From Salinigranum rubrum (GTDB lineage: Archaea; Halobacteriota; Halobacteria; Halobacteriales; Haloferacaceae): a stretch of DNA of 64,000 nucleotides. The stretch's first letter is position 1. Each line of letters starts with the position of its first letter. Below the pieces are notes generated by a model. The model was not told the DNA's origin and made no database searches. It was given only the letters and a program-made list of their open reading frames with translations. A program made the position numbers and the translations under genes. Location of the stretch: NCBI RefSeq assembly GCF_002906575.1, contig NZ_CP026309.1, positions 3,162,001-3,226,000 of the forward strand, in the 5' to 3' direction. Shown here piece by piece: positions 44,342 through 63,767 of this stretch.

Positions 44342-45076
44342 TCATCGGAATACATCAAACGTTGTTTGTTCGTTATTAAGAGCGCTCCACCGAGCATCGG
44401 GTTCTGCCCAAGCCCAGAATTGCCTCGTTGAGCCGTGAATGACCTCGCCAGTGTTAACAGCACCACCGTGAGCGATGACGTGACAGCGATTACAGAGGAC
44501 AGCGAGGTTCTCCATTACCGCAGGTCCGTCTTGTCTCGCTGGGTCAATGTGATGTACAACGGTCTGTTCCGTTGATTCACAGCGAACGCAACGGTCGTCA
44601 TCTCGCTCACGCACTCGCTTTGCTAACGCGGGCGGGGCTTGGTGCTCTCGCTGTTTTCTTGACCACTGTTTTTCGCGGACTATTTGTTGCTCAGCATCCC
44701 ACTCGAACCGCCTTGCATGGCCTGCACTGCATCCGACGACCTCTGCGAGAATACGAGAGGGAATGCTGTACTCAAACACTAACAGGAGCTTCTTGATTTG
44801 TGCTTGGTACGTCTCATCCGGATCGCAGGCTCGACCAACATACTCCGTGTATACCCCTACAAGCTCGTTCTCTATCCAGTCACGCTCACCTCCGAAGTCA
44901 TAGCCTGTCTCACCACCATCCCTCCGGTGACGAGCTGACCCGTGATCATTATCTTGCCTCTTTTGATTATTACACCCACAGCTGGGCCGAAAGCGAACCT
45001 CTCGACGCTGTTTCAACAGAGCAGCGTGTCTATTCCGAAGTTCAGTCAGCCATCTTTGTGAGTCACCCAGTTCCAT
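44342..45076 (-). CDS. HNH endonuclease
   Basis: 244 residues from ATG 45076. The N-terminal 150 residues are acidic then basic, including a small Cys pair (PSCGCNNQ) and a helical DNA-binding-like part (VVGCSAGHARRFEWDAE). The C-terminal HNH domain carries structural Cys163/Cys166 and Cys195/Cys198, the His pair 175-176 (VVHHIDP), Asn190 and His199/His203 (CHVIAHGG). It should cleave DNA using one divalent metal. It follows the DEDD-exonuclease gene after 19 bp on the same strand, so the two are probably one operon facing away from the PhiH1-like repressor. Confidence 0.85.
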   Translation of the reverse strand: MELGDSQRWLTELRNRHAALLKQRREVRFRPSCGCNNQKRQDNDHGSARHRRDGGETGYDFGGERDWIENELVGVYTEYVGRACDPDETYQAQIKKLLLVFEYSIPSRILAEVVGCSAGHARRFEWDAEQQIVREKQWSRKQREHQAPPALAKRVRERDDDRCVRCESTEQTVVHHIDPARQDGPAVMENLAVLCNRCHVIAHGGAVNTGEVIHGSTRQFWAWAEPDARWSALNNEQTTFDVFR

Positions 45077-45095
45077 CGTTGCAATCGTCGTTCTA

Positions 45096-45821
45096 TTAGC
45101 GGCAGGGGTTGTCGAATGGACGCCGATCAGCAAGCGTGAACAGTGGTTCGACGTCAGACAACGCGTACTGCCTCAACATCTCTTCTAGCTCGTGGAACTG
45201 CCGCGTGTCCGTCTCGTCAGCGTCGTATTGGTCCAGATAGATCTCGCCCAATAGCGCTACATCAGAGCTGAGTAGTTCCGGAGTACCTCGATCACGTGGA
45301 GCACGGAGCTCGTCTATGTTTATTCCGTGGTTGTATTCTGTCCATCGGGTTTCAGCGACCTCAAAACCAGCTCGGTTGCATGCCTCTTCCAGACTGGTGT
45401 ACTGCCCATACGCGGACCACGCGTCATGGATGAGATCGTCGCTCTCGATTGTATCTAAAAATATCGTGAGTTCTACCTGCAGAGATTGTTGCGCGCCGAG
45501 ATTCTTCGCTGCAAGCCGTGCGCGACCCACGAGGTGGTGGAAGTCGAATGCGTCACCGTTGTAGCTCAGAATGGTTTCCGGCTCTCGCGAAATACATCGG
45601 TCAAGAGCTGCTCCAACAACCTCAAGTTCTGTATTTGATCCCCACCCCTTGCGGAATAGGACGGTGCTTTCGATATCTCCGGTAGAGGCGTGTTCATAAC
45701 CTATTGAAACCGCGAACACCTCAAAGTCTCGTGAGTCGGTGAAGTCCGGGCGTCGTCCATTGGGAATACTGGGGCTGACTGTCTCGATATCGAGGGCCAG
45801 CCGTCCACTTCTTTGGTTCAT
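45096..45821 (-). CDS. DEDD-type 3'-5' exonuclease-like (RNase H fold, PolB-exo related)
   Basis: 241 residues. The three exonuclease motifs are complete: Asp11-x-Glu13 (LALDIETVS), Asn88-x4-Asp93 (ILSYNGDAFDFHHL) and Tyr219-x3-Asp223 (RQYALSDVEP). This is the arrangement of the proofreading domain of family-B DNA polymerases, but no polymerase domain follows; it is a stand-alone exonuclease acting on single-stranded 3' ends of DNA or RNA. The region between motifs II and III is longer than a minimal exonuclease. Linked to the HNH gene (19 bp) and divergent from a PhiH1-type repressor across a palindromic regulatory region. Confidence 0.82.
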   Translation of the reverse strand: MNQRSGRLALDIETVSPSIPNGRRPDFTDSRDFEVFAVSIGYEHASTGDIESTVLFRKGWGSNTELEVVGAALDRCISREPETILSYNGDAFDFHHLVGRARLAAKNLGAQQSLQVELTIFLDTIESDDLIHDAWSAYGQYTSLEEACNRAGFEVAETRWTEYNHGINIDELRAPRDRGTPELLSSDVALLGEIYLDQYDADETDTRQFHELEEMLRQYALSDVEPLFTLADRRPFDNPCR

Positions 45822-46666: not shown

Positions 46667-46824
46667 AGGACCGGATCGACTGGCCGGAAGCAAACGAGTT
46701 TCACTGAAGGAGGGCACAATAGCAGCGACTCACCCCCAGCTACTGTATTGAAACTGTCCGCTTCTGTACCCGTCTCCGGGCTGCTAGAATTCCCCACGAT
46801 GTGACTACTTGAACGGGCGAGGAG

Positions 46825-46830
46825 TATATC
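46825..46830 (+). promoter_or_regulatory. TATA box of the three-gene PLD operon
   Basis: TATATC centred about 28 nt before ATG 46855 (AGGAGTATATCTGGG context) gives a leaderless transcript and fixes the start of the first gene. Confidence 0.5.
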
Positions 46831-46854
46831 TGGGTGTGCCGAAACGTACCCATC

Positions 46855-48273
46855 ATGGCGACACCTGACGAGCGAATCTTCATTTCAGGAACGCAGGAGA
46901 CTCAGAGCCGGACAAACCTTTTCCGGCCGAAGGAGCTCCGCGAGGTGGTCTTCCCGGGGATGGGGATGATCATGCACTCGCTGTTCTGGGTCAAGCACAC
47001 GTTCGCCCTAGCCGAGTATGGCTACCCTCTTACGGACCAAGACGCGATCTTGTTGTGGGCGACGGGCGAGGAACCGGACTATACGGAGAGTCTCCTCTAC
47101 TACTGCGTGTACTCGAACATGGGAACCGCCGGTAAGATGACGGTCAACGCCGGGCAGCGGGCCACCCGGGACTGGCTCTTCCGGAAGGACCCCGACCAGC
47201 CGGGAGGAATTTACGCGCAGTTGGCAAGGAATCTGCACCGGCTCGCCGAACAGCAGCCGGTGCCGGACTACGAGACGTTCGTCGAGGCCTCGTTCGCGCC
47301 TTGGTTCCGGACACGATGCGATGAACTCGGTGTGGATCTCGTGGCCGAACTGGAGGATACGGTCGGCTCAGCGCTCGACGAGACGGAGCCAGAGTATCAG
47401 GAGCAGGCACTCGCCAGCGGGTTTGCGACGGCAGTCGGCCGGGTAGTGAAAAGTCACTCCTCCCTACGGAGCGGCAAGGACACGCTCGTGATTTCGACGA
47501 CGTTCAGTTTCGCCCGGCGCGTCTACGACACGGCGACGCCGGAGCAGCGCTCAACGCTCGGGAATACGCGACTGGAGTTCACCGCCGGTGAGGCGACGGC
47601 GCTGCTTGAGGCTGTCGGACGAATTGACCATGGCGAGCATTTCCTCCGGTCGCTCATGTTCATGCTCTATCTCGACCCGACGGCTCACCGTAGAGACGAA
47701 ATCACTCAGCAGATGCGGCACCTCTATGACACCGTCACCGAAGACCCGGAGGAAATCGTTACCACGGTCCAGACGGAATATTCGCTCTCGGCATTCGATG
47801 ACCGCGTTGTGGAGGGGCTGAATGCCACGGCGTTCTACTGGGTGTTGAACTTCTTCATGGCCGATGGCGAGACCATTGCTCGGGATCTCCTCGACGAAAT
47901 CGACTCTCCGATCGATGTGGGCGACGTGCGAGACTACTTCGACTCGAATTCATCGACCGCCGACCGGTATCGCTCGTTCTTCCGGTATACGGACGAGTGC
48001 CAACCCCATCTCTCGACGCTCCTGACGGAGCTCCGTGAGACCGACGCCGGAACGACCGTCACGTTCGTCGAGACGCTCACAGCGGGCCTCGACGAAGGCC
48101 TCGACCCGGCGGCCCTCTTCCTCGAACTGCTGGCCTCGCAGGGGACCGTCACGGAGAAATCGGAAGGACAGTACCTCAGCAGCACCCGCCCGCAGAACAC
48201 AAACGCCGCGAGCTTCTACGGCATCGGGCCGCTGATCTCGTGGGCTGAAACGCTCGCCACCTCAATCCGATGA
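46855..48273 (+). CDS. Unrecognised helical protein, first gene of the PLD operon
   Basis: 472 residues from ATG 46855 (seven codons after a possible GTG at 46834, which overlaps the promoter). No family is recognised. It starts MATPDERIFISGTQETQSRT and is mainly helical with aromatic-rich segments (GMIMHSLFWVKHTFALAEYG; NATAFYWVLNFFMADGE). No transmembrane segment, signal peptide, Walker motif or metal cluster is evident. The last four bases overlap the PLD gene start (ATGA), so expression is coupled. GC is higher than in neighbouring island genes. It could be a regulatory or target-recognition subunit of the nuclease; inference from operon structure only. Confidence 0.75.
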   Translation: MATPDERIFISGTQETQSRTNLFRPKELREVVFPGMGMIMHSLFWVKHTFALAEYGYPLTDQDAILLWATGEEPDYTESLLYYCVYSNMGTAGKMTVNAGQRATRDWLFRKDPDQPGGIYAQLARNLHRLAEQQPVPDYETFVEASFAPWFRTRCDELGVDLVAELEDTVGSALDETEPEYQEQALASGFATAVGRVVKSHSSLRSGKDTLVISTTFSFARRVYDTATPEQRSTLGNTRLEFTAGEATALLEAVGRIDHGEHFLRSLMFMLYLDPTAHRRDEITQQMRHLYDTVTEDPEEIVTTVQTEYSLSAFDDRVVEGLNATAFYWVLNFFMADGETIARDLLDEIDSPIDVGDVRDYFDSNSSTADRYRSFFRYTDECQPHLSTLLTELRETDAGTTVTFVETLTAGLDEGLDPAALFLELLASQGTVTEKSEGQYLSSTRPQNTNAASFYGIGPLISWAETLATSIR

Positions 48274-49949
48274 CGGGGGCAGACGACGTCCTTGGAAACG
48301 CCGGCCCGGAGTTCGAGCAGGATCTCCAGAGCAGTGAGTACGACCGCTATCTCATCTTCACCTACGGTATCAGCCTTGAGCTGTTGTCGTGGTTCGACGC
48401 CAGCGATACCGTCGTCGTCTGCGGTCCCGACGACACGACCGAGGAGGTGTATGAGAACGCGGGTGGTGTCGACGCAACCGTGAAGACGCGGACGATACCG
48501 TCCCACGCGAAACTATATCTCATGTGGGGCGAGGACCGGATCACCTGCTGGCTCGGGTCATTCAACTTCACCTACTCGGGCATCTACGAAAACGTCGAGT
48601 GGGCGGCACGGTTCAGCGACACACTTGAGTACGATCCCACGCCGGAGGAACTGCTCGACGGCGACGTGGGCGACGGACTCACGCCGAGCTGGCAGGTCCG
48701 CCAGGCAATCGAACTCATCGGATCCACGGTCACCGGCGACGACACCGGCTGGGCCGACTCCCTCCTGCAGAATACCAAGTATCCGTACGTGCTTGTGCAT
48801 TCGCACCGCTCGAACACGCTGAAGCGAGCGCTCCGAAACGAGCTCGCCGACGCCGCGGGCACGGTGTCAATTACTTACTACGCCCCCTTCGTGAACGCCC
48901 GAGGGGTGGAACTCTTCGCCGAAACGCTCGCTCCCGATGTCAGACCCGAAGATATCGACCTCACAGTTCGGACCTGCCGGCTCAGCAAGATCAGCAATCA
49001 GGACACTGGGCTGAGTTCGGGCCATGTCGCCGACTTCGAGCAGCGGTTCGATGACTTCGCGTATCAGGTCCGAGCGCCGGGCGACCAGGGGGACCAGTTG
49101 CGTGGCGGGCGCGAGTTGCGGTCGGGCTTCGCTCATCAAAAGATAGTGGGGCTCCGGTTCGTCGACCGCGAGGAACAGGAACAGCGTATCTCGCTGTTGA
49201 CGACGGCGAACCTGACGAAGAACGCGTGGCAGCACAACTCCGGCAATTTCGAGATTGGGCTCCTATTGCGGGACCACACGCAGAACGAACAGCTTCACGA
49301 CTTCCTCGGGTCACAGCTGCCGTACTGTTATGAACGTCCCCGAGAGGGTGAACTCGACGAGGCTGTCTCTTCGAGCTCTGAGAGCGTCTCGTTCAAGGAG
49401 GTCTGGCTGGAGGATCTGGTCAGAGATTGGCTGGAACTCCGCGAGGATGCCCTCGAACTCGCGTGGTCGGCATCGCTGCCGACGCTCGGTGCAGTTACGG
49501 CCACCGTGTACTACCGCAATCTCTTGGATGGGTCACGCTCGCCGGAAACAGTCACGCTCAAGCCCGTCGAGGAGGGGCGTCGTGCGGAAATTCCCACGCT
49601 CACTCCGCAGTCGAATGCCGTCATCGACTTCATCGAACTGGATATCGAGACCTCGTTCCGACCGCCGGAGCGTCGGCTGACCGGTCCGGGACTTGAGCGG
49701 CTCCGCAGCGGCGAGCTGTCCCTGTCGGAGTATCCCGGCGACGTGGTGGTGTGTGATGGCTCGGCTGTGCCGGTTGATGAGTTCGATATTGACACGACGG
49801 GGGCGTCAGAGATCTGGCTCCGTGCCGAGTACACGGAGTCGCGGACGCTCACGGTGCTACACGAGCCCCAGTCGCAACCCCATCTCGACGAGACCTTCGT
49901 GCAGGGCGTCTCGACCGGGGCGGTCACAGCTGACGGCGTCGGGGGGTAA
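48270..49949 (+). CDS. Phospholipase D-fold nuclease-like protein with two HxK motifs
   Basis: 559 residues. Motif 1: His79-x-Lys81 (IPSHAKLYL) then Gly96-Ser97-x-Asn99 (GSFNFT). Motif 2: His289-x-Lys291 (FAHQKIVGL) then Asn314 (LTTANLT) and Glu328. Two motifs in one chain give a complete PLD active site; the usual Asp after Lys is not obvious, so the site is of HxK...N style, as in Tdp1-like and many nuclease members. Residues 390-559 form a separate, beta-rich acidic C-terminal domain of unknown type. No signal peptide is seen, so the substrate is probably DNA or RNA in the cytoplasm. Coupled by ATGA to the upstream gene and followed closely by the third gene. Confidence 0.85.
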   Translation: MTGADDVLGNAGPEFEQDLQSSEYDRYLIFTYGISLELLSWFDASDTVVVCGPDDTTEEVYENAGGVDATVKTRTIPSHAKLYLMWGEDRITCWLGSFNFTYSGIYENVEWAARFSDTLEYDPTPEELLDGDVGDGLTPSWQVRQAIELIGSTVTGDDTGWADSLLQNTKYPYVLVHSHRSNTLKRALRNELADAAGTVSITYYAPFVNARGVELFAETLAPDVRPEDIDLTVRTCRLSKISNQDTGLSSGHVADFEQRFDDFAYQVRAPGDQGDQLRGGRELRSGFAHQKIVGLRFVDREEQEQRISLLTTANLTKNAWQHNSGNFEIGLLLRDHTQNEQLHDFLGSQLPYCYERPREGELDEAVSSSSESVSFKEVWLEDLVRDWLELREDALELAWSASLPTLGAVTATVYYRNLLDGSRSPETVTLKPVEEGRRAEIPTLTPQSNAVIDFIELDIETSFRPPERRLTGPGLERLRSGELSLSEYPGDVVVCDGSAVPVDEFDIDTTGASEIWLRAEYTESRTLTVLHEPQSQPHLDETFVQGVSTGAVTADGVGG

Positions 49950-49960
49950 CGTTCCTCGAG

Positions 49961-51082
49961 GTGACCGTCGATGGTGCGATCACGCCACGTCACGACCAGC
50001 TACTGTTGCGGCGGCCGACCGGCGGCCCCATAGAGTACCTCGGGCACGCGACCCCTGAAACGGGGATGCTCCGCTACTATTTCGATGAGCGTCACGGAGG
50101 CGACGTGGTCGAGATCACAATCGCGCCGCCACTTGATCGGTACTATCGGCTCGACGACCGCCAGGTGTCACTTCCACAGCCCGACGCAAGAACCGCTGAG
50201 GCCGTGCAGACCTTCGCATCCTTGCAGCTGACTGCGAAGCCGGTTGGGGAGTCCACGATAATCGACGACCAGACGGCGGTCAGTTTCGAGGCAGAAGAGA
50301 CCGAGTTGCCACAGGACGAGGGGGTTGAGGTTCACTGGGGCGTCCGGGGCTACGACCGCTTTGGGGAGACAATTATGCTTGACGAGACGCTGGCACCGCA
50401 AGAACCACACCGGCGGCTCTGGTTCCGTGGTGCCGTGTCGCTGGACGTGGATGGAACTGTAGTTACGATGCTAACGCAGCGCAACTCGGTAGGCATCAAG
50501 GAACAGCCGTTCGTGACCGAAGTTCCGGTTCGGGAGGACCTGCTTTCGACACACCTCGACCTTCGGTCTCTCTCCCGGCACAAGCTTCTCGCGTGGCTGG
50601 TTATCGACCGTTCAGAGCTGCTGAAACCCGCCGTTCGCGACACCGACCAGCATCTTAAGGTGAGCGTGTCCGAGTCGGGGACGGATTATAGAGGGGTTAT
50701 TTGTCCGGTATTGGACGACGGGGAGCTGCTATGTCTGCCCCTAATTGGAGCACACCAAGACAGAACCCTCCGATACGAGTTCGAGTTCGAACTCCAGGGA
50801 GGCCGGCCGGAAATCGATTACTACGCGTCCCGCCAGGCGACGCTTGACTTCAACGTGAGTACGGAGGAGACCGCTATCGAGCTATCGTGGGCGGACCATT
50901 CGCATGTCATTCGCCATCGCGATGGGGAACCGACGCCGACTCTCAATCTGTTGGATGATAGTGTGAGCGCCGGTGAGCTCTCGCAGATGTTGTTCCCGCG
51001 TGATCCGTTCGAACTCGAGGAGCGGGAGAGATTGGCGATTCGTATCAACGAGCCTGGATTATTACAGCTGGTGGATGAGTAA
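49961..51082 (+). CDS. Unrecognised beta-rich protein, third gene of the PLD operon
   Basis: 373 residues from GTG 49961, 11 bases after the PLD stop. The frame is open further upstream into the PLD gene, so an overlapping start cannot be excluded. Predicted mostly beta with alternating hydrophobics (DVVEITIAPPLDRYYRLDDR, RLWFRGAVSLDVDGTVVTML) and many Asp/Glu; the pattern suggests tandem beta-sandwich domains. No catalytic motif, signal or membrane segment. It resembles the C-terminal domain of the PLD protein in composition, which may indicate shared ligand or assembly surfaces. Probably a partner subunit of the PLD protein. Confidence 0.7.
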   Translation: MTVDGAITPRHDQLLLRRPTGGPIEYLGHATPETGMLRYYFDERHGGDVVEITIAPPLDRYYRLDDRQVSLPQPDARTAEAVQTFASLQLTAKPVGESTIIDDQTAVSFEAEETELPQDEGVEVHWGVRGYDRFGETIMLDETLAPQEPHRRLWFRGAVSLDVDGTVVTMLTQRNSVGIKEQPFVTEVPVREDLLSTHLDLRSLSRHKLLAWLVIDRSELLKPAVRDTDQHLKVSVSESGTDYRGVICPVLDDGELLCLPLIGAHQDRTLRYEFEFELQGGRPEIDYYASRQATLDFNVSTEETAIELSWADHSHVIRHRDGEPTPTLNLLDDSVSAGELSQMLFPRDPFELEERERLAIRINEPGLLQLVDE

Positions 51083-51112: not shown

Positions 51113-52147
51113 TCAGTATTGGGGTTTGAGTTCTAGCGCCGAAGATTCATACGAGTACGCACTGATGTCGTGGTCATCACAATAGGCCTGTAATTCGTTC
51201 GGTACCCGGTAGAAATCGTCGCTAACGGTTTCTTCGAGATGATGGAGGAAGGCGACCGCGATATCACGATCCTCGTCTTTGTCGATATTGACTACCACTG
51301 CCAGGTCTGGGTCGTCGTAGTCGGGCTTAATCACGTAGTCGCCGAGGGCAAAGGGTTCTTTTGCCTGTTCAAGATTAGTGTGCTTGTACGTGTAGAGTTT
51401 GATATCTTGGTCGTCGCAGTAGGAGGCGAGCTTCGCTGGAGAGATCTTCCGCCAGTCGCTTGGACCGTCGTCAAGCATCTCGGGAAAGGCGACGTTGACA
51501 GCTTCCCCATCCATCGTCTGTCCAAATGCTGTCTTGTTCTTCTCCGGCGGCAGAACCTCTACAACGACTGCAACTGATGTGTTGTTGTCATCAGTTTTAA
51601 CAACCCTGTCGCCGGGTGCGAACGGATTCTCCGGCTTCTGATTCAGATGGGCGGTATTCGGCCCGAGGTCGTGGAGCTCGTTCATCGGTCTGGCAGACAG
51701 ATGTGCGAGCTTCTCGGGTTCTTCGCCAGAGTATTCCTCTTGTGTCTTGACTTTTGATTTCAGCGTCTCGGTTCGCTCCCAACCCAGCAAAATAAGCGCG
51801 TCTTCCTTGTCTCGATGCCAGACCATGACTATAATATCGTCATCTGGATCATTTTTTAGAATATTCGCTGGTCGGAACGCAGAGACGTCCCGCGATGTCT
51901 TCACGTCTATCTCGTAACCGAACACCTCAAAGTCGTATCCAGAGAAACTCTCAGGGTTACAACGACGGATTGCCTCCTCGTTCTTCCACTCCCACATCTC
52001 GACTGGGAGGTATTCGCGACAGAACTGCTCAAACGCCAGCTCGCCGAGGTTCCCGATGCGCTTCACGTCGATATCTTCAGAACCTTGAATGACCGCTTGG
52101 TGGTGGGCACGTTCCTGATCTATCTTATCCGGCGAATATAGATACAC
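51113..52147 (-). CDS. PD-(D/E)XK nuclease-like protein with duplicated C-terminal module
   Basis: 344 residues; GTG 52147 is the first start in frame. The N-terminal domain (25-125) has the restriction-endonuclease fold signature: Glu36 in RIGNLGELAFEQF, Asp72 in SGYDFEVFG, and Asp81-x-Lys83 in YEIDVKTSRDV. Two C-terminal modules follow, about 175-262 and 265-340. Each starts PFAxGDxVxKxD, continues with an AVVV strand, and ends with a helix and strand of the form LxxYCDDxDIxxYxYxxxxLE. The duplication is clear by eye. The modules may bind DNA or another ligand. It is convergent with the PLD operon (stops 30 bp apart) but not obviously co-regulated with it. Confidence 0.82.
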   Translation of the reverse strand: MYLYSPDKIDQERAHHQAVIQGSEDIDVKRIGNLGELAFEQFCREYLPVEMWEWKNEEAIRRCNPESFSGYDFEVFGYEIDVKTSRDVSAFRPANILKNDPDDDIIVMVWHRDKEDALILLGWERTETLKSKVKTQEEYSGEEPEKLAHLSARPMNELHDLGPNTAHLNQKPENPFAPGDRVVKTDDNNTSVAVVVEVLPPEKNKTAFGQTMDGEAVNVAFPEMLDDGPSDWRKISPAKLASYCDDQDIKLYTYKHTNLEQAKEPFALGDYVIKPDYDDPDLAVVVNIDKDEDRDIAVAFLHHLEETVSDDFYRVPNELQAYCDDHDISAYSYESSALELKPQY

Positions 52148-54012: not shown

Positions 54013-54609
54013 ATGGTTCGCGTCGACGACTCGGGAGACGTCACGAAGTGCTGGCTCTCCCCAGACGAGCTGACGACTCTCGAACGGTCCGCTGGGAAAG
54101 ACGGTTGGGAGCGAGAGATCGCAGTCCAACTCATGGGACAATGTGGTCTTCGAGCGTCCGAAGTGGGTTACCCCGGTGACCACCACCTTCGCTACTCCGA
54201 AGACGGCAGTGTGTGGCTGTTTGAGGTCCGCGGGAAGAACACAAAAGGAGGCGACCGCAAAACGCGGGATGCCTGGATGCCCGATAACGTCGCTGACGAT
54301 GTCCACAAATACAGCCGTGAGCGGCAACTCGATCCATCGGAGTCGTGGGTCAACGTGAGTACGCCGTCGGTTCGTCGATGGGTGAAAGAGGCGGCTAAAA
54401 CGATTGCTGACAATCTGGACGAACCACGGTGGCGTTCTGTTTCCTCACACGACCTCAGACGCTCCTGGGCGACGTACCACCTCGTTGAGCGTCAGGTCGA
54501 CGTTCGAACGATGATGAGCATCGGTGGCTGGTCCGACTACTCCGCGATTGAGCCGTATCTCGCTGAACCGACAGAAGCGCGAATTGGTGAGGCGATGGGT
54601 GAGAGATGA
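54013..54609 (+). CDS. Tyrosine recombinase, catalytic domain only
   Basis: 198 residues. Arg47 (CGLRASEV), a Lys-containing beta hairpin (RGKNTKGGDRKTR), His146-x2-Arg149 (SHDLRRSWATY), Gly171-Gly172-Trp173 and nucleophile Tyr182 (AIEPYL) are all present. The N-terminal core-binding domain of normal integrases is missing, which is the usual form of a short haloarchaeal integrase group. It may excise or invert DNA rather than integrate alone. Together with the 41.6-kb integrase it brackets the accessory island and precedes csa3 and the cas operon. Confidence 0.85.
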   Translation: MVRVDDSGDVTKCWLSPDELTTLERSAGKDGWEREIAVQLMGQCGLRASEVGYPGDHHLRYSEDGSVWLFEVRGKNTKGGDRKTRDAWMPDNVADDVHKYSRERQLDPSESWVNVSTPSVRRWVKEAAKTIADNLDEPRWRSVSSHDLRRSWATYHLVERQVDVRTMMSIGGWSDYSAIEPYLAEPTEARIGEAMGER

Positions 54610-55045: not shown

Positions 55046-55843
55046 TCACATACTATTCTGCAGTTTAATATCTCTGAGATAGAGTTCTGCACCGAGCGTC
55101 AACCGCCCCACTCGCTCTTTGCCCTCGCGCGACGACTTGACGACACCCGCTTCCTCTAACGAATCAAGATGCCGGCCGACCGTGCTTTTCGATTGGCCTG
55201 TCAACTCGGTTAATTCTGCGACAGAAAGCGTGGTGTTGACAGCGCTATCTCCATCCGTGATTCGGTCGTCGCTCAAAGTTTGCGTCGCCTTGATAAACGC
55301 CTCGAACGTCTTTTCTGCTCGATTCGGGATGTGCGGGTTGACCGTCGGGAGAGCAATCGAGGCTGGTTTCGTGTGTAGATCACCAACCATCACGACCTCC
55401 TCGATATGAGATGGGTGGGCGGCCGCGATCACACTCAACACGAAAAGCAGCTCTCGGACTCCGCCGCCGGGGCACACAATTGTCTCAACAGCCTTCGTTC
55501 CGAGAGATGGGGCCGTGGCTTCGGCATCGTTTTGTGGAATCCCGCGTTGTGCTGCACGCGCAGGGTCAGTCACGAGAGCGCTAACCTCTCGGATTGCAAC
55601 ATCGAACGGGGGGCAGATGACTGGGGCGCTGACGATTCGGATGTCGTCATCGATCCGCTCGAAGAACTCAACGAGTTCCGCTGTCGAGGTGGCTGCTCTC
55701 TCATTCACGAACCCACCGTCGTCGTCGAAGTTCGCAGCTGGTTGCAAGAGAACGATCTGGTCGCCACTGTCAATTCCCGATTTAATCACTGACCGGGTTA
55801 TTCGACGGGTGTCAAACCCAAAACTGGCGATATACTGCCGCAT
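55046..55843 (-). CDS. csa3: Csa3-type CRISPR regulator (CARF + winged helix)
   Basis: 265 residues from ATG 55843, 26 nt after a TATA-like box (complement of 55867-55872). The N-terminal CARF-type Rossmann domain begins YIASFGFDTRRITRSVIKSG with a nucleotide-binding-type Asp/Thr region and contains VCPGGGVRELLFVLSVIAAA, the Gly-rich CARF ligand loop. The C-terminal winged helix (about 205-265) is LSVAELTELTGQSKSTVGRH. Csa3 proteins sense cyclic oligoadenylate-type ligands or act as transcription regulators of cas and adaptation genes. Located divergently upstream of cas6, it is placed to control this operon. Confidence 0.88.
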   Translation of the reverse strand: MRQYIASFGFDTRRITRSVIKSGIDSGDQIVLLQPAANFDDDGGFVNERAATSTAELVEFFERIDDDIRIVSAPVICPPFDVAIREVSALVTDPARAAQRGIPQNDAEATAPSLGTKAVETIVCPGGGVRELLFVLSVIAAAHPSHIEEVVMVGDLHTKPASIALPTVNPHIPNRAEKTFEAFIKATQTLSDDRITDGDSAVNTTLSVAELTELTGQSKSTVGRHLDSLEEAGVVKSSREGKERVGRLTLGAELYLRDIKLQNSM

Positions 55844-55865
55844 ACACGCCAAAGAAAACGCGCCA

Positions 55866-55956
55866 GTATAGTTCTATCGCGCTACCGTAGTGAAATCCTA
55901 ATCTTGAATTGCACTGAATTGCAGACTCTTCTCCATCACACAAAACCTTATGTAAG
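55866..55956. promoter_or_regulatory. Divergent csa3/cas6 promoter region
   Basis: A minus-strand TATA-like GAACTATAC (complement of about 55866-55874) is 26 nt from the csa3 ATG, and CCTTATGTAA (55947-55956) is about 27 nt from the cas6 ATG. Both suggest leaderless mRNAs. Confidence 0.55.
55905..55924. repeat. Tandem 10-bp repeat in the csa3/cas6 promoter region
   Basis: TGAATTGCAC followed immediately by TGAATTGCAG. Ten-base spacing puts both copies on the same helix face, between the two TATA boxes. A candidate Csa3 operator. Confidence 0.5.
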
Positions 55957-55976
55957 AGAAGTTGTCACGAAACTGT

Positions 55977-56798
55977 ATGCAACGAATCGACATGGCACTC
56001 TCGCCGTGTTCGAGTTTCCCGGTCCCGTATTCGACGGGATATCCGACGTATGCTGCTCTATTAGACATATTAGACGGCGTATCCTCGGAGGTGAGCGCGG
56101 CCGTTCACGACTCACCGCTCAGCACCTTCCGGAATAGCGGGCTCCTCGGCGGATTCGGGAGTTCCGAACGGGATCACCATCAACTCGTCCGTGGAGACCG
56201 GACCTACCGAATGAGCATTGGCGTCACCTCTGATGAGGAGCAGTCGGTGTTTCGGTCACTGGTTGACGCGCTCATGTACGACCAGCGCCCCATCGAACTG
56301 ACCGATGGAGTGTTGGAGGTGAAGCAGTTCGAGTCCACACAGGCCACTCACGAGTCACTCCTCGAAGAGGCGACGTCGTATGTGTCGCCGCGCATCCGCG
56401 TCGCGTTCGAGACGCCGACGTGCATCGAAGACGGCACGGATATCCAGACCCGCGTCCCCCACCGGATTCCAGTCTTCGAGTCGCTGCGAAACAAGTGGAA
56501 CAAGACGGCACCGGAGCAGTATCAGTTAGACATCACGCGGGATGATATCCGACAGAACGTCATCGCGCAGCCGAACCCCCGGACGTACCGCAAACACAAG
56601 GTAATGAAGGGACGCAGTGAGGACGGCCAGCTCTTGTTCATTCACGGGTTTACGTGTGACTGGGAAGCGTGGTTCCATAAGGCATCCGATGCACAGCAGA
56701 CTGCCCTGACGGCACTCATGCTCTATGCCGAATATAGCGGCATTGGCAACGCCGTCGCGCGTGGGTGTGGCTCGGTCTCTGTGGAGGTACAGGACTGA
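55977..56798 (+). CDS. cas6: Cas6 family CRISPR RNA endoribonuclease
   Basis: 273 residues from ATG 55977; an ATG at 55962 is too close to the TATA box. The C-terminal Gly-rich loop SGIGNAVARGCGSVSVE is the Cas6 RAMP signature. The N-terminal ferredoxin-like half has short strand patterns (YRMSIGVTSDEEQSVFRSLV). It should cut pre-crRNA within repeats to give the crRNA for the type I-D complex. The His usually used in catalysis is not clear by eye. The stop overlaps the cas10d start (TGATG). Confidence 0.85.
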   Translation: MQRIDMALSPCSSFPVPYSTGYPTYAALLDILDGVSSEVSAAVHDSPLSTFRNSGLLGGFGSSERDHHQLVRGDRTYRMSIGVTSDEEQSVFRSLVDALMYDQRPIELTDGVLEVKQFESTQATHESLLEEATSYVSPRIRVAFETPTCIEDGTDIQTRVPHRIPVFESLRNKWNKTAPEQYQLDITRDDIRQNVIAQPNPRTYRKHKVMKGRSEDGQLLFIHGFTCDWEAWFHKASDAQQTALTALMLYAEYSGIGNAVARGCGSVSVEVQD

Positions 56799-59700
56799 TG
56801 CCGCAGGAAGACGGTGAGCAACGTCACCTCGGTGAGTTTGATGTCGGCGGTGACGAGGCTCTGGAGTCACCTCCAGCCGAGGGCAACGAGACAGGGCAGA
56901 TCGCCGCTGAACTCTACGCAGACCCGCTTCAGAACTTAGGCCGAGACGAGGAGTCCCCGAGTTCGACCCTCACAGAGAGGTTTTCGAGGAGTATGCGACT
57001 GAGATCGACCCCAAACTCATCGAGTCAGGGTGGCTGTTCAGCCAGAACAAGAGCGTTGAGTACGGAAAAGTGGATCAGTCGATGCTCAATCACACGCGGA
57101 ATCTGGTCTTTTTCCTCCACCGCCTCGCGACGGTTGCAGAGGAGAGCCGAATACAGCCAATCTCTCCAGATGAACTTCGTGAACTCATCGCGCTCGCTGT
57201 TGCTCACGACTTTCACAAACTCCGTGCTGAGGACGAGAACCCAGCGACTCGGTTCAATATCACCGAACAGGAGATGGATGCGTTTGTCGCCGACTTCGGA
57301 CTCGATGAGTTCGCCCCTAATCTCAACGTTCGCGACTTCCACTCGTGTGCAGTAGACCACCACGACAGCGATGCAGCCCGCTCGACGGAGGTAACGCTTC
57401 GGTGGGAAGACTATCGACCACTCATTCGGCTCGCAGACGGGATGGCCTCCTGTACGACACCACAGGAAGCAACGAATCAGCGGATGCAGTCAACGTTCCA
57501 TGAGGCGTTCCCTGGTGAGCCGGTGAAACTGGTCAACCACCAGATTGATCACGTTACCGGTGTCTTCACGAACCTGCTAAATGCGACTGTTTCGGAGTAT
57601 CTCAACGAGAACTTCGACTACACCTGCCTGACCATCTATCAGGATGGGTGCGTCTATCTCGCACCACGGGATGCCCCGGAGCCGGCCAACGACGCTGAGT
57701 TGGCGGACGCACTAATGCGGAAGGTTGGCGCGAACATCAGCGACAGTCATCCTGCATACCGCTCTATCGACCAACTCCAGTCGAACATCGGAAGTGGGGC
57801 GCGGTACAGCCTCAACGATCCTGACTTCTTTTACGCGGGGTCAGCGCGATTGCTCCGGGCAACGGTTCGCAAAGGCATGACAGATGGCGCCGCCGACGAT
57901 GAGCCGACTGACGCTGCCCGTACGTCGATGGAGTTGTTGGAGGAGGGACTGGACACTGAGTTCTCGATGACGAAGCAGCAACAGGGTGCAGCCCGCTTCG
58001 TCAACGCAATCAAATCCGACTTCGTGAGCCCACTCCGGCCAGATGCAGGTGGCTTTGAATTGATTCGACCGACTGTCGAAGCGTTCGGCTTCGATGAGGC
58101 ACTCGCGGACTCGCTTGAAGAACTCCCCGAAGGCGTACACAGCAACCTCGTGAGTGGAGGGAAATGGGACTATTCGTACGCTCTCGCTCAGCGGCTCCTT
58201 GATCAGTTCGGAGAGGGTGAGGCGCTTCGTGAGTCCTCCGACGAAATCATGGAGACGCTCGAAGAAAGACTCGAAGGCCTTGTCGAGACGGACGACCAGA
58301 ACGTCGGTTGGGCTACGGTCGTCCAGCAGGCGCACGCAGGGGCGCTCGCTGGCGAGGTGCGAGCGTTCATCGAAGAAAACCTGCGGGTCGGCAAAGGCGC
58401 GCTCAGCGACGAGAGCGCTACGACAGACACGTTCGATGAATACGTGAAGAAGTCACGAGCGAAAACCTGCACGCTGTGTAGTCGCGGGGTCAGAGCAGGT
58501 GGGAATCTCACTCCGATGAAGTCGAAAAAGTCACTCTCGACGCTCCAGGCTGGCTTCACCAATCGCAAGCAGATCGGCCGAAACAAGGAGGACAAACTGA
58601 TCCTCTGTGCCGCGTGTCGCATCGAATTCTCGCTCCGTGAGACGGCGGCTGAGCGCCGTCAGGATGGACGATTATTTTTCCACCTCGTCCCAGACTACTT
58701 CTTCACACCGTTCTCGTGGCAACTCACTGATCGGTTAGTAAACCGATTCACGGGCGAGAACCGCGTCCGATTGGGGCGCCTTGCTGAAGCGGTCTACGAT
58801 ATGCAGACACCGGAAGGTTTCGGCGCCATCATGGACGAAGTGACCCAGCCGGAGGGCAACGGCGGCCGGACGATGTTCGAGTCGCTCGGACGGGATTTCG
58901 ACCACAATCTCCAGTTCGGCTCACAGACGATTGGATATTTCAAAGTCCCCGACAACGACACTGAATTCCAGTTCTTCGGTGCATTCCTCGCGCTGTCTAT
59001 CAGCGCGTACACGGGAATGCGCGTCTACATGAGCCAATCGCCGGTGCCTGAGATGCGGGCTCGTGAATTCCCCGAGTTCGCCAAGCTAGGCGGCGGGTTC
59101 ACCCAAGTCACCCAGTTCTACGGCGAGTCTGTCTCGTTGAGTGAACTGCCGACGACACTCCGTCGAGCAGCAGCTCTGATTCAACTCGGGCACGCGCTGC
59201 AGGGGAGTTCGCGGAACGACTCCCTGTTTGCGAAGTATCTCCGAGTGAGCCGCAACGAGTTACTCCCCGGGGCGCACCTGCTCAAGCGGGCGATCCAATC
59301 CTCAGATGAGGGGCTCTACATTCCTGCCCTGATGAGATATGCAGTCGCGCTCGACGAAGGGCGCGGCATCGCACGATTCAATGACAGCATGAGTGAGACA
59401 CCTCACAGCCGCATCACCCGACTCGCAGAACTCGCGTTCGATGCAATCCGGCCGAACACTCGGGGCAACAAGCCCCACCGGGTTGAACGCGTCTTCCGCG
59501 AGAGTGTGAAAGCGGTCACGAAAACAGGCGGACAGCTCAGCCGAGAGGATTACACGATGCTCGTTTCGGGCCGAATACAGAAGATGCTCGACCGGCAGGC
59601 CGGCAACGGGATCTACCCAGTCAGCCACGAAGACTCTGAGGCCGGCACCTCGCTCCAAGAACGGATTGAAGACTATTCGGGGTTCTTCGTGGATGAAATT

Positions 59701-59874
59701 CTGTTCGGTATCGCGAACGGGCGCCCGTCGCAACTCAAGCGACTGGAGAACAACCTCGCAGACGGCTTCTTCGGGGCGACACTACGGCTGAGCAACGAGC
59801 AGTATCAAGAACAACACGGCGATGACGCCGAGACAGAGACGGCTGCGACTGCAGACAATAAGGAGGACATCTAA
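56798..59874 (+). CDS. cas10d: Cas10d/Csc3, large subunit of type I-D with HD nuclease domain; N-terminal single-base frameshift
   Basis: Starts at ATG 56798 inside the cas6 stop. The first 50 codons (MPQEDGEQRHLGEF and GQIAAELYADPLQNL) are followed by a break at the C4 run 56955-56958. One added C continues PEFDPHREVFEEYATEIDPK and LIESGWLFSQNKSVEYGKVD into the main frame; corrected length is 1025 residues. The HD-type nuclease domain has His137-Asp138 (AVAHDFHKL) and a second VDHHD cluster. A zinc finger uses CTLCSRG and CAACR, followed by the palm-like core. In type I-D this HD, not Cas3, cuts DNA. The split is probably a sequence error, not loss of function. Confidence 0.9.
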
Positions 59875-60851
59875 TGTTAGACGATTCCATTACCACGGCA
59901 CTCGAGAACAGCACCGTCCCGATGGATGGGATGACGAACACCCCAGGCACAAACTACACGACAATACTCGTGCTGCGGGAATTAGAGAGCCACGCCATCT
60001 TCACCACCAACGGGCAGGACGCTGACATCGCCTCCCTCTCGGTTGTCGGAGAGGAGGGGAGCATCGAATACTCGCCGGGGTTGATGTTCATGCGGAAACA
60101 GACCGGCAGCGACCGGCGTATGGGCAAGGCAATCCAGCGTGAACTACTGGACTACGAGAAGGACGATTCGATGGAGGTCAACGAGATGAACCCCCGCTCG
60201 GTCGAGTCGGCACTCTACGGGAGTGCAGCCAGCGGGGACGATGAGGTGGACATCGGCGTGACCTCACGAGTCATGTACGATACGGCGTTCAGCGTGCGTG
60301 ACGCGAGTGCCTGTATCGACGAGAAATTTCAGAACGCACCTGGTGAGGGCTACGCCAAGGGTTCGAAGGCCACTATCCGCGAGCCGGACTTCTTCGAACC
60401 GGGCACTCTCTTCCCGTGTGCTATCACGCTCCGAGACGCGACGCCTGCGGAGGTCGCGTTCGTCCTCGCCATCACGAAACGGAACAAGCGGTACGGGGCA
60501 GCGACCACGCGTCTCGGTCGGGTGAAAAATCACGTCCTCGGTGTGTACACCGGCTCTGAGGAAGGCCCATCGAACCGCGAACTGACTGCAGGTGTCATCA
60601 ATGCCTTCGCAAGTGAAGACGACCGCACGATGGCCGATGTTGTGCAGGCGGCTGCGCTCGATGTCGCCGTCGCCAAGGAGGCGACCCGCGCAACCTACGA
60701 CGCAGCGTGTGAGTCAGGTATTTCCCAGTCAGCGGTCGATGAGTCGATCGTGGACGATTTGCTCGAACTGACCGCGGATGAAGAACTTCGGGGTGTCCTT
60801 GAGGCACAGCGTGACCGCTCGGCGGCGTTCATCGACGCTGCACTCGACTGA
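59874..60851 (+). CDS. csc2: Cas7d/Csc2, type I-D backbone subunit
   Basis: 325 residues; the ATG overlaps the cas10d stop (TAATG), and an AGGAGG Shine-Dalgarno lies at 59861-59866. The Csc2 pattern is visible: an N-terminal RRM-like strand (YTTILVLRELESHAIFTTNG), the insertion VNEMNPRSVESALYGSAASG, and the loop RYGAATTRLGRVKNHVLGVY. The C-terminal half is helical. Several copies of Cas7d line up along the crRNA in the I-D complex. Follows cas10d as in known I-D operons. Confidence 0.9.
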   Translation: MLDDSITTALENSTVPMDGMTNTPGTNYTTILVLRELESHAIFTTNGQDADIASLSVVGEEGSIEYSPGLMFMRKQTGSDRRMGKAIQRELLDYEKDDSMEVNEMNPRSVESALYGSAASGDDEVDIGVTSRVMYDTAFSVRDASACIDEKFQNAPGEGYAKGSKATIREPDFFEPGTLFPCAITLRDATPAEVAFVLAITKRNKRYGAATTRLGRVKNHVLGVYTGSEEGPSNRELTAGVINAFASEDDRTMADVVQAAALDVAVAKEATRATYDAACESGISQSAVDESIVDDLLELTADEELRGVLEAQRDRSAAFIDAALD

Positions 60852-60862
60852 GGCATCCGCTC

Positions 60863-61621
60863 ATGCAGGTCATCGAAGCGACGATGCTGACACACGGGAA
60901 GGTCGGGTTCGCCTCCCGTGAGGTTGGACGAATGGCCGACACCGAGCCGTGCGTATTGAATACGGCCTTACACTACGCCCTTGGGCTGGCCAGTGGTCGC
61001 TACGTGGATGCCAGCCACCAGCCGACGTATATCGAAGACACCGCTGAGGTGGTGAACGACCTCTACGTCACACCGGCGATTCCGGCCAAGGAAGACAAGC
61101 GCGGCTCTGTTCGTGCGTCGTTCATCACCACTGTTCGGAACGCGCGAGGCGACAAGTACGCGACGCCGAACTACTCAGCCCAGGATGAGCGAAACGAGAA
61201 GGCAAACCTGAACGTGCCTTCGTTCGAGCGTGAGCGGGCGCTCGCACCGGGTAATCTATTTCGCTTCTACGTCTTCCCATACGGGCGGTCAGCCGAGGAG
61301 GCACTGGACGTTCTCCCACGCTATATCCGCCTTGGGAAGAAGCGTGGGAAAGCACGGGTTGCATACCGAACCGTCGGTGCTGAGCGGCGGTCAGGGACGT
61401 TCTCGCTCGGTCACCCACTCAGCATCTACGATCATGAGGCACGACCAACCGGTGGAGTCATCATGAAGCAACTGCAGCCCACCCCTCTCGTCTACGAGGG
61501 AGAGTTCGATACCGACCACTACGCCATCGACTCTCCGTTCAGTGAGAGCTCAGATTACGAAGCGCGCATCTGCTACCCAGCCGATGCGAAGTTCCTCTTG
61601 CAGAAACGAAGCGATGTCTGA
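60863..61621 (+). CDS. csc1: Cas5d/Csc1, type I-D subunit
   Basis: 252 residues starting 12 bases after the csc2 stop. MQVIEATMLTHGKVGFASRE is the first RAMP strand, with further strands at VRASFITTVRNARGDKYATP and KRGKARVAYRTVGAERRSGT. The Gly-rich loop and length fit Csc1, which caps the 5' handle of the crRNA. Its last bases overlap the cas3 start (eight-base overlap). Order csc2-csc1 after cas10d is the type I-D signature. Confidence 0.88.
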   Translation: MQVIEATMLTHGKVGFASREVGRMADTEPCVLNTALHYALGLASGRYVDASHQPTYIEDTAEVVNDLYVTPAIPAKEDKRGSVRASFITTVRNARGDKYATPNYSAQDERNEKANLNVPSFERERALAPGNLFRFYVFPYGRSAEEALDVLPRYIRLGKKRGKARVAYRTVGAERRSGTFSLGHPLSIYDHEARPTGGVIMKQLQPTPLVYEGEFDTDHYAIDSPFSESSDYEARICYPADAKFLLQKRSDV

Positions 61622-63767
61622 CTTCGAGCCACTCACGTTCCGGCTGGCCGGTCTCGGGTTGCGGATGTACCCCGGCGACTACCCGGCACAGAACCTCGAC
61701 CCGCATCGCCACCAGTGGGGGATGTACGACGCGCTGACGAGCGGCATCTCCGGCGCCTTCGTGAACGCAGCCCCAACTGGGAGTGGCAAGACTGAATCGT
61801 GGGTCGCACCGGTCGTCGAGAAGGGGTTAGATACCATCGCTGTGTATCCCACGAACGCACTGATCGAGGATCAGCGACGAGGTATCGATAGGCTGCTCGA
61901 AGACATTGACGGTGGCGACGACGTCGCATTGCTCAATGTCACGAGTGAGACGATCGGTCCGAACGGGAAGTACGCCGAGCAGTTCCCCGAAGCCAAGAGT
62001 AATGGTGAACGGTTGTCGCAGTTGCTGGGACAACAGCTCGGGCGCACATCATACAACACGACAATTCTGCTGACGAACCCCGATACGTTTGTCCTCATGC
62101 GTCGAGGGCTCTACAACAGCCGTGTCGAGAACGTTCGTCGGTTCGAGGTCGCTGTCGTGGACGAGTTCCACCGCGCGAACCGGAAGGAGCAGAACACGAT
62201 GCTGTTCCTGCTCGACGAAATGTATGACCTCGACGAATCAGTCTGTGGGCTGAACCAGCTTGTCTTCCTCAGCGCGACACCGGATGCCGAACTCGAAGCC
62301 AAATTCGAGAACAGTCTATCGGCGCCGTATTATCGGGCTGATGAGTTTGCGTGGGCCGATGACCCCTCGGTCCCGGACGTGCTCGATGGGGAACCCTCAC
62401 AAGTCGATTTTGAGCCTGATGGCCTCCCCGAAGGATACCGGGATATCTTGCCCCCGGTCGAACTCACGGTTTTTCCCTCACAAACGTTCCAGACGGCGAC
62501 GGAGATGCTCGATGACGACTCGTTCGTCTCGCAGGTTCGAGACGGGGAGTGTGTCATCATGCTGGACGGCATCCACGAAGTCGACCGTGTCTACCGAGCG
62601 CTGCGCAACGCTGGTGTTACGGGCGTCGCTCGAATCGATGGCTTTCATCGGAAGAACCTCGAAGAGAAACTGAAGGCTCCGACGCTAGTGAGTAACTCAG
62701 CAGTAGAGGTGGGTGTTAATTTCGACACTGAGCAGATCATGTTCTCCGGTCACGACGCGTCGAGCTTTTTCCAGCGACTCGGCCGCCTGCGGAACCGGGA
62801 GGACGAGTCGGTTGCACGCGGCTACGTGCCTAAATACACGTTCTCAAAGCTGACGGATCTCGATAAGGCGTCTGGCGATATGTGGCTACCACGTGGACGG
62901 TTCGAGGATGAATTGAAGGAAATCTATGTGGATGCCGGTCGCGCACCCGAGTCGTTCGACCGTCGCTACTCGGCTGTTGAGGCGTACGACCACATCAGGA
63001 GTCGCGAGGACAATGCGATGGAAGACCGAAAAAAGGAGCTTCGGCGCGATGGGTACCAGCGGCTCTCGCGTCACTTCTTCCCCGGGGAGACGCTCACGAA
63101 AGACGACGTACAGCGTCTTCACAACGCCGCGAACCGAGGGGTGCTTGACGGCCTGAAGACCTACCGCGGGGAGAGCATTCAAACGCTTGTCTTCGACCAA
63201 CAGGAGCAGAGTATGCAAGCGTACAATATCCCCTACCTGCTTCGACATGGCAGCGTCTCGTTTGTCCCTCGAGAAGAGTTTCTGAATCGAGTTCCCGAGA
63301 GCGAACACGCCGATGTGCGTCGGCTAAAAGAATACAGTGCTGGATACTGCATCTATCGAGGGTCGGCTGACAATGACGGTGAAGCAGCCGAATATGCTGG
63401 CCGGCACGTGGCGTACAAAGCGACTGGACAGCTGTACACCCTGCTGAGTGACCACCCGCGGAACTCACGCGAACCGAAGCGCGTGACAGGGCTGGAGGTT
63501 GAAGTCGACGGGCACGTCGAAGGGTTGAGTCACCTCAAAGACGCACTCAGTGAACGCGAGGTACTCTGCTATGCCCTCGAAGGCAACGCATCGAAAATTC
63601 AGAACCTCTACTCACTCGGCCCGTTTGGATTCATATATCCACTGAGATATTCGGGCGGGGATGCCGCAGTTGCGTTCGGCCATGACGCGCTACATCTCCA
63701 CTGTCGTGTTCAGGATCAAGCCGAGAAGGACGCGGCAGACAACCTGGACGAGGTGTTGGATTGGTAG
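61614..63767 (+). CDS. cas3: Cas3 helicase (Cas3'), type I-D, without HD domain
   Basis: 717 residues from ATG 61614. Motif I is NAAPTGSGKTES (Walker A at 53-60), motif II is VVDEFHRANR (DEFH, 183-186), motif III is FLSATPD, and QRLGRLRNRED is the arginine-finger motif VI. An SF2 helicase with no HD nuclease, as expected in type I-D where the HD is in Cas10d. It unwinds target DNA after the complex has bound it. The longer frame upstream (61542) overlaps csc1 and is not a better start. cas4 follows at once. Confidence 0.93.
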   Translation: MSDFEPLTFRLAGLGLRMYPGDYPAQNLDPHRHQWGMYDALTSGISGAFVNAAPTGSGKTESWVAPVVEKGLDTIAVYPTNALIEDQRRGIDRLLEDIDGGDDVALLNVTSETIGPNGKYAEQFPEAKSNGERLSQLLGQQLGRTSYNTTILLTNPDTFVLMRRGLYNSRVENVRRFEVAVVDEFHRANRKEQNTMLFLLDEMYDLDESVCGLNQLVFLSATPDAELEAKFENSLSAPYYRADEFAWADDPSVPDVLDGEPSQVDFEPDGLPEGYRDILPPVELTVFPSQTFQTATEMLDDDSFVSQVRDGECVIMLDGIHEVDRVYRALRNAGVTGVARIDGFHRKNLEEKLKAPTLVSNSAVEVGVNFDTEQIMFSGHDASSFFQRLGRLRNREDESVARGYVPKYTFSKLTDLDKASGDMWLPRGRFEDELKEIYVDAGRAPESFDRRYSAVEAYDHIRSREDNAMEDRKKELRRDGYQRLSRHFFPGETLTKDDVQRLHNAANRGVLDGLKTYRGESIQTLVFDQQEQSMQAYNIPYLLRHGSVSFVPREEFLNRVPESEHADVRRLKEYSAGYCIYRGSADNDGEAAEYAGRHVAYKATGQLYTLLSDHPRNSREPKRVTGLEVEVDGHVEGLSHLKDALSEREVLCYALEGNASKIQNLYSLGPFGFIYPLRYSGGDAAVAFGHDALHLHCRVQDQAEKDAADNLDEVLDW

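Follow-up and report, generated by a model that had tools for sequence, protein, structure and literature searches.

A conserved haloarchaeal gene pair with a large phospholipase D-type nuclease, a candidate two-component defence module

A stretch of 64,000 nt from Salinigranum rubrum (NZ_CP026309.1, positions 3,162,001–3,226,000; hereafter the window) carries at 46,855–51,082 three closely spaced open reading frames, one of them with phospholipase D (PLD) motifs. The initial annotation read them as a three-gene, translationally coupled operon and a possible undescribed defence or mobile-element system, which raises the question of how many genes the locus really holds and what they do. The sizes of the ORFs (472, 559, and 373 residues), the ATGA shared by genes 1 and 2 at 48270–48273 and the 11-base gap between genes 2 and 3 were all reproduced from the sequence, as were the two HxK/N motifs of the 559-residue protein. 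The features of the locus are the following.

46824..46830, + strand: TATA-like GTATATC, from the sequence, about 28 bases 5′ of the gene 1 ATG
46855..48273, + strand: gene 1, helix-rich, 472 residues, no known family; winged-helix-like shape at about residues 331–444
48270..49949, + strand: gene 2, first part, 559 residues; predicted duplicated PLD nuclease domain and first beta-rich region; stop TAA at 49947–49949
48504..48569, + strand: half-site 1, HxK...N (HAKLYL ... GSFNF), H79-K81/N99
49134..49217, + strand: half-site 2, HxK...N (HQKIVG ... TTANLT), H289-K291/N314
49941..49946, + strand: G6 run abutting the gene 2 stop, where the frame of the conserved protein switches
49961..51082, + strand: "gene 3", 373 residues; C-terminal beta-rich part of the gene 2 protein, in the other frame

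The best start of gene 1 is the ATG at 46855, an in-frame GTG being present also at 46834, and the position of the TATA-like element is compatible with a leaderless transcript. The G+C content of the pair is about 0.62, vs. about 0.50–0.53 in both flanks and mostly 0.62–0.72 in the chromosome.

The main genome set comprised 391 Halobacteria genomes, which were queried with the gene 1 protein and with a gene 2 profile built from the continuous proteins of the relatives. Both searches matched the identical five genomes and no others, i.e., that of the window and four relatives, while a further locus (G717) came from a family search. This gave six intact-order loci in total: the window and five relatives (G331, G384, G368, G243, and G717). 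In all five relatives the gene following gene 1 is a single ORF of about 970–985 residues (in two relatives, taking the earliest possible start would give 1,035 and 1,050), and it aligns unbroken across gene 2 and then gene 3. The three-gene architecture is thus refuted. On the window genome the gene 2 profile matched two abutting pieces in different frames (profile positions 9–581 and 584–950). The frame of "gene 3" is open from 49934, upstream of its GTG start at 49961, and the residues read in it from 49934 align with the relatives. Since the relatives are continuous, the profile pieces abut and the frame switches at the G6 run, we conclude from these alignments that "gene 3" encodes the C-terminal portion of the PLD protein, broken off in the window. 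The resemblance in composition between the beta-rich tail of the PLD protein and the third protein, pointed out in the initial annotation, is accounted for as well, because the two are parts of one protein in the relatives.

The split of gene 2 in the window reflects damage to this copy, an error of the assembly, or translation in two pieces via re-initiation 11 bases downstream. The neighboring Cas10d gene is of full length, so the assembly is not obviously error-rich. It could be argued that the three-ORF form is a real functional fission, with the halves of gene 2 re-associating; this would concern the state of the window copy only. Such a split would fit the codon periodicity retained in gene 3, its 373 codons without a stop and the GTG start placed just past the gene 2 stop. 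Yet, 5/5 relatives have a single ORF and the break falls in a G6 run, G-runs being typical places of indels, which makes a functional fission unlikely in our estimate. A programmed −1 frameshift at the G run is a further candidate; the run offers no good slippery heptamer, so we place it below mutation or assembly error. The window copy of the system may be inactive, being split. With the architecture corrected to two genes, experimenters should use an intact relative, such as the pair of Halorubrum sp. SD626R with its 974-residue gene 2 protein, instead of the window copy.

The PLD assignment of gene 2 is supported by a match to PLDc_2 (PF13091) of 35.9 bits at a Pfam cut-off of 27. Across the five relatives, the alignment shows no variation in either HxK motif, in the Asn downstream or in the Glu after it, so that gene 2 displays what defines the PLD superfamily: two HxK motifs with a downstream N and a two-lobed fold. 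Structural comparisons used an AlphaFold model of the intact Halorubrum protein (pLDDT 50 overall, the PLD half being better). TDP1 was its best match in Foldseek (E 1.7e-9), and VIA-align recovered the PLD superfamily broadly (Z 14–17 over about 270–300 residues). Past approximately residue 390 the protein is beta-rich, and Ig-like matches there are weak. As modeled, the gene 2 product of about 975 residues has a TDP1-like PLD nuclease domain in duplicate and, C-terminal to it, beta-rich domains. PLD enzymes act on lipids too, and phosphatidylserine synthase, vaccinia F13, and phospholipase D are likewise among the matches of the fold, as would be expected if the domain were a phospholipase or another lipid or envelope enzyme. 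We regard this as very improbable: PADLOC and NCBIfam give weak matches to the defence PLD proteins DrmC and ZacB, one relative weakly matches RE_NgoFVII (E 0.002), and the neighbors of the pair indicate nucleic acid. For the beta-sandwich domains of PglZ and DndH, binding to the DNA backbone or to invader proteins has been proposed (PMC12839542).

Searches with gene 1 and its relatives (about 480 residues long) gave nothing credible in Pfam, PADLOC, NCBIfam, or PHROGs, and a profile search of the PDB returned only designed or helical chance matches. The structural model of gene 1, which is weak (pLDDT 59), had no Foldseek match at E <= 0.001. The model is helical, with a C-terminal helix-helix-hairpin that resembles a winged helix; matches to cullin-type winged helices are weak (Z ~5) and were given no weight. 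Gene 1 is perhaps a nucleic-acid binder acting through this putative winged helix.

Whether homologues keep the same gene order in other haloarchaea was a check proposed in the initial annotation, and the order held for the pair. Genes 1 and 2 are adjacent and in the same order in 6/6 loci, and among the 391 genomes they were not found singly or scattered. In each of the six loci there is a 4–11-base overlap between the gene 1 stop and the gene 2 start. Protein identity between distant pairs falls to about 21–31%, and the only genes conserved across all loci are the pair itself. In the trees of both proteins G384, G368, and G243 cluster together. The branch dividing them from the window, G331, and G717 is fully supported in the gene 2 tree; the gene 1 tree, with its long branches, is less certain. 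G717 (family f3) groups with the window and G331 (f1), and G384 and G368 (f3) group with G243 (f7). The pair moves horizontally between genomes, judging from these trees, because they conflict with taxonomy (G717 and G384/G368 belong to one family). It is absent from the three other genomes of the genus of the window. Degenerate peptide patterns run against about 85,000 species genomes, an approach that may miss more distant relatives, hit only two haloarchaeal loci, neither of them new. A truncated gene 1 remnant with about 90 matching residues lies at a contig end of another genome (G800, L024), beside a XerC-like integrase.

Strict pairing, an upstream partner, translational coupling, and a patchy horizontal distribution are also what a toxin-antitoxin or abortive pair would show. 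There, gene 1 would restrain the PLD enzyme, and its release would kill the host or block a mobile element, not specifically a virus. However, gene 2 is large, with a beta-rich tail of about 600 residues, gene 1 with its ~480 residues would be an unusually large antitoxin, and the neighbors are defence genes. We therefore rate this explanation as quite unlikely.

The surroundings of the window copy comprise an HNH nuclease, an integrase, a CARF/Csa3-like regulator, and a type I-D CRISPR-Cas operon. The initial annotation placed the three ORFs between two integrases and beside other nuclease genes. One integrase is indeed present 3 kb downstream of the pair (54013–54609, PF00589), while no second was found among the ORFs scanned; nearby nuclease genes are borne out by the HNH nuclease at 44342–45133 on the − strand. 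The HNH part of the latter weakly matches an IscB model (31 bits) and the PADLOC DpdF and ZorE models. Directly after the pair, and convergent to it, 51113–52147 (− strand) encodes a 344-residue protein with a PD-(D/E)XK-like motif seen by eye (GYDFEVFGYEIDVKTS) and a weak KOW match, a candidate accessory nuclease. The type I-D operon at 55046–63767 includes Cas6, Cas10d, Csc2, a Csc1-position ORF, and Cas3′, and the CARF/Csa3-like regulator lies on the opposite strand. Two congeners share an MFS gene at ~39.7–40.9 kb; when island edges were sought, synteny within 20 kb did not extend beyond this gene.

In the relatives, the neighbors include an HKD-SNF2 helicase, UvrD-PDDEXK and DEAD helicases, and a PbeA-like helicase fragment. 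Tiamat-like TmtA proteins (1645–1660 residues, 46% identical) lie beside two pairs (L007 12710–17647 and L019 13754–18736); TmtA is the PADLOC name for the Tiamat system. Most copies have PD-(D/E)XK-type nucleases nearby, assigned by Pfam in L009 and from the motif alone in L007, L008, and L010. A single-copy PD-(D/E)XK-like protein of 409 residues (L007 11419–12648, L008 4103–5326) is 86% identical between two loci whose pairs themselves are just 24–30% identical, and a distant version of it (25%) adjoins the L010 pair. Possibly, this protein is an accessory gene with its own recent transfer. A Tubulin/FtsZ-family protein of 595 residues (L010 5804–7591) was seen near one pair. The neighbors vary by locus and are mostly of defence type, and this gene content suggests that the pair sits in defence islands.

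A DNA-repair or mobile-element enzyme, performing TDP1-like end processing on a genomic island, could account for TDP1 being among the best structural matches, for the integrase downstream of the window pair and for the truncated gene 1 relative beside the XerC-like integrase. Yet, across the loci there is no constant integrase or transposase partner, and, at the search sensitivity applied, neither 50,697 phage records nor 72,556 plasmids nor IMG/VR contained a match to the pair. A role of this kind appears distinctly improbable to us.

Because of the strict pairing, gene order, coupling, horizontal spread, and defence-type neighbors, we favor the defence reading. Of the PLD defence module first suggested for the locus, these features and the lack of a known family for gene 1 speak in its support, while the three-gene architecture does not stand. 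We consider it somewhat probable, on six intact-order loci and distant homologues, that the pair is an undescribed two-component, helicase-free haloarchaeal defence module with gene 1 as sensor or regulator and gene 2 as a metal-independent nuclease. Gene 1 would be a helical sensor, regulator, or brake co-translated with gene 2. The gene 2 protein would be a single-chain PLD phosphodiesterase whose two HxK/N half-sites form one metal-independent active site. TDP1- and BfiI-type PLD nucleases cleave phosphodiesters without metal via a covalent phosphohistidine, and gene 2 may by analogy do the same. Its beta-sandwich tail would bind a target or partner. Upon infection, the putative complex of the two proteins would be released or recruited and nucleic acid, most likely DNA, would be cut; we infer the complex, the DNA substrate, and the trigger, just as we infer the antiviral role from gene content and linkage. 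More tentatively, and with a likelihood somewhat below even, the pair may be a self-contained archaeal immune system of two proteins, free of helicase and methylase, in which a new protein family detects invaders and sets free a large PLD nuclease, the immunoglobulin-like tail of which recognizes the target. Many prokaryotic defence systems contain PLD nucleases, which are normally aimed by an accompanying helicase or ATPase. If the proposal is true, a minimal pair without either, whose partner protein belongs to no known family and which diverges strongly while staying strictly linked, would be a simple test case for PLD nuclease control. The pair also adds one candidate to the short list of archaea-specific defence systems.

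Comparison with known systems bears out the initial view that the locus is not DISARM: Pfam, PADLOC, and NCBIfam detected no DrmA helicase or DrmB (DUF1998) in genes 1 and 3 or in the neighboring ORFs scanned, and no methylase match was found there. DISARM requires DrmA and DrmB, DrmC being a dispensable PLD nuclease (PMC9142583). Gene 2 shares with DrmC the HxK/N PLD nuclease type and the occurrence in defence islands, and the profile match is weak (NCBIfam 35.1 bits at a cut-off of 133; PADLOC ~19 bits); however, gene 2 is about four times longer, with a beta-rich tail and a unique partner. Azaca includes a PLD-like protein (PMC10952713), and its ZacB is the best PADLOC match of the PLD protein (42–45 bits, covering only the PLD part of a 586-position model). 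In contrast to Azaca, gene 1 and its relatives match no Zac model, including ZacA, and no ZacC-type helicase is conserved at the pair: none was found among the window ORFs scanned, and a ZacC match (28 bits) occurred only in a neighbor of one relative. In BfiI, CglI, and NgoAVII, as in gene 2, a PLD domain precedes a beta-rich region. In CglI and NgoAVII, the PLD-type endonuclease is accompanied by a methylase and a DEAD ATPase (PMC4267653), whereas the pair is without a methyltransferase or DEAD-type N-protein partner, and gene 2 has two half-sites per chain and a much larger beta-rich tail. Where the B3-like domain sits in BfiI and NgoAVII, gene 2 is beta-rich and the model has low confidence. 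In archaeal PbeABCD, the PLD domain is fused to a helicase (PMC6459918). TDP1 shares with gene 2 the two-lobed single-chain PLD fold and the HxK/N motifs, yet at ~12% identity; gene 2 differs also in its extra 600 residues, its pairing with gene 1, and its patchy horizontal distribution. In the literature searched, mainly open-access papers, the pair is undescribed. Judged by these sequence comparisons, it belongs to none of DISARM, Azaca, PbeABCD, or CglI/NgoAVII, and would work like a PLD-effector system.
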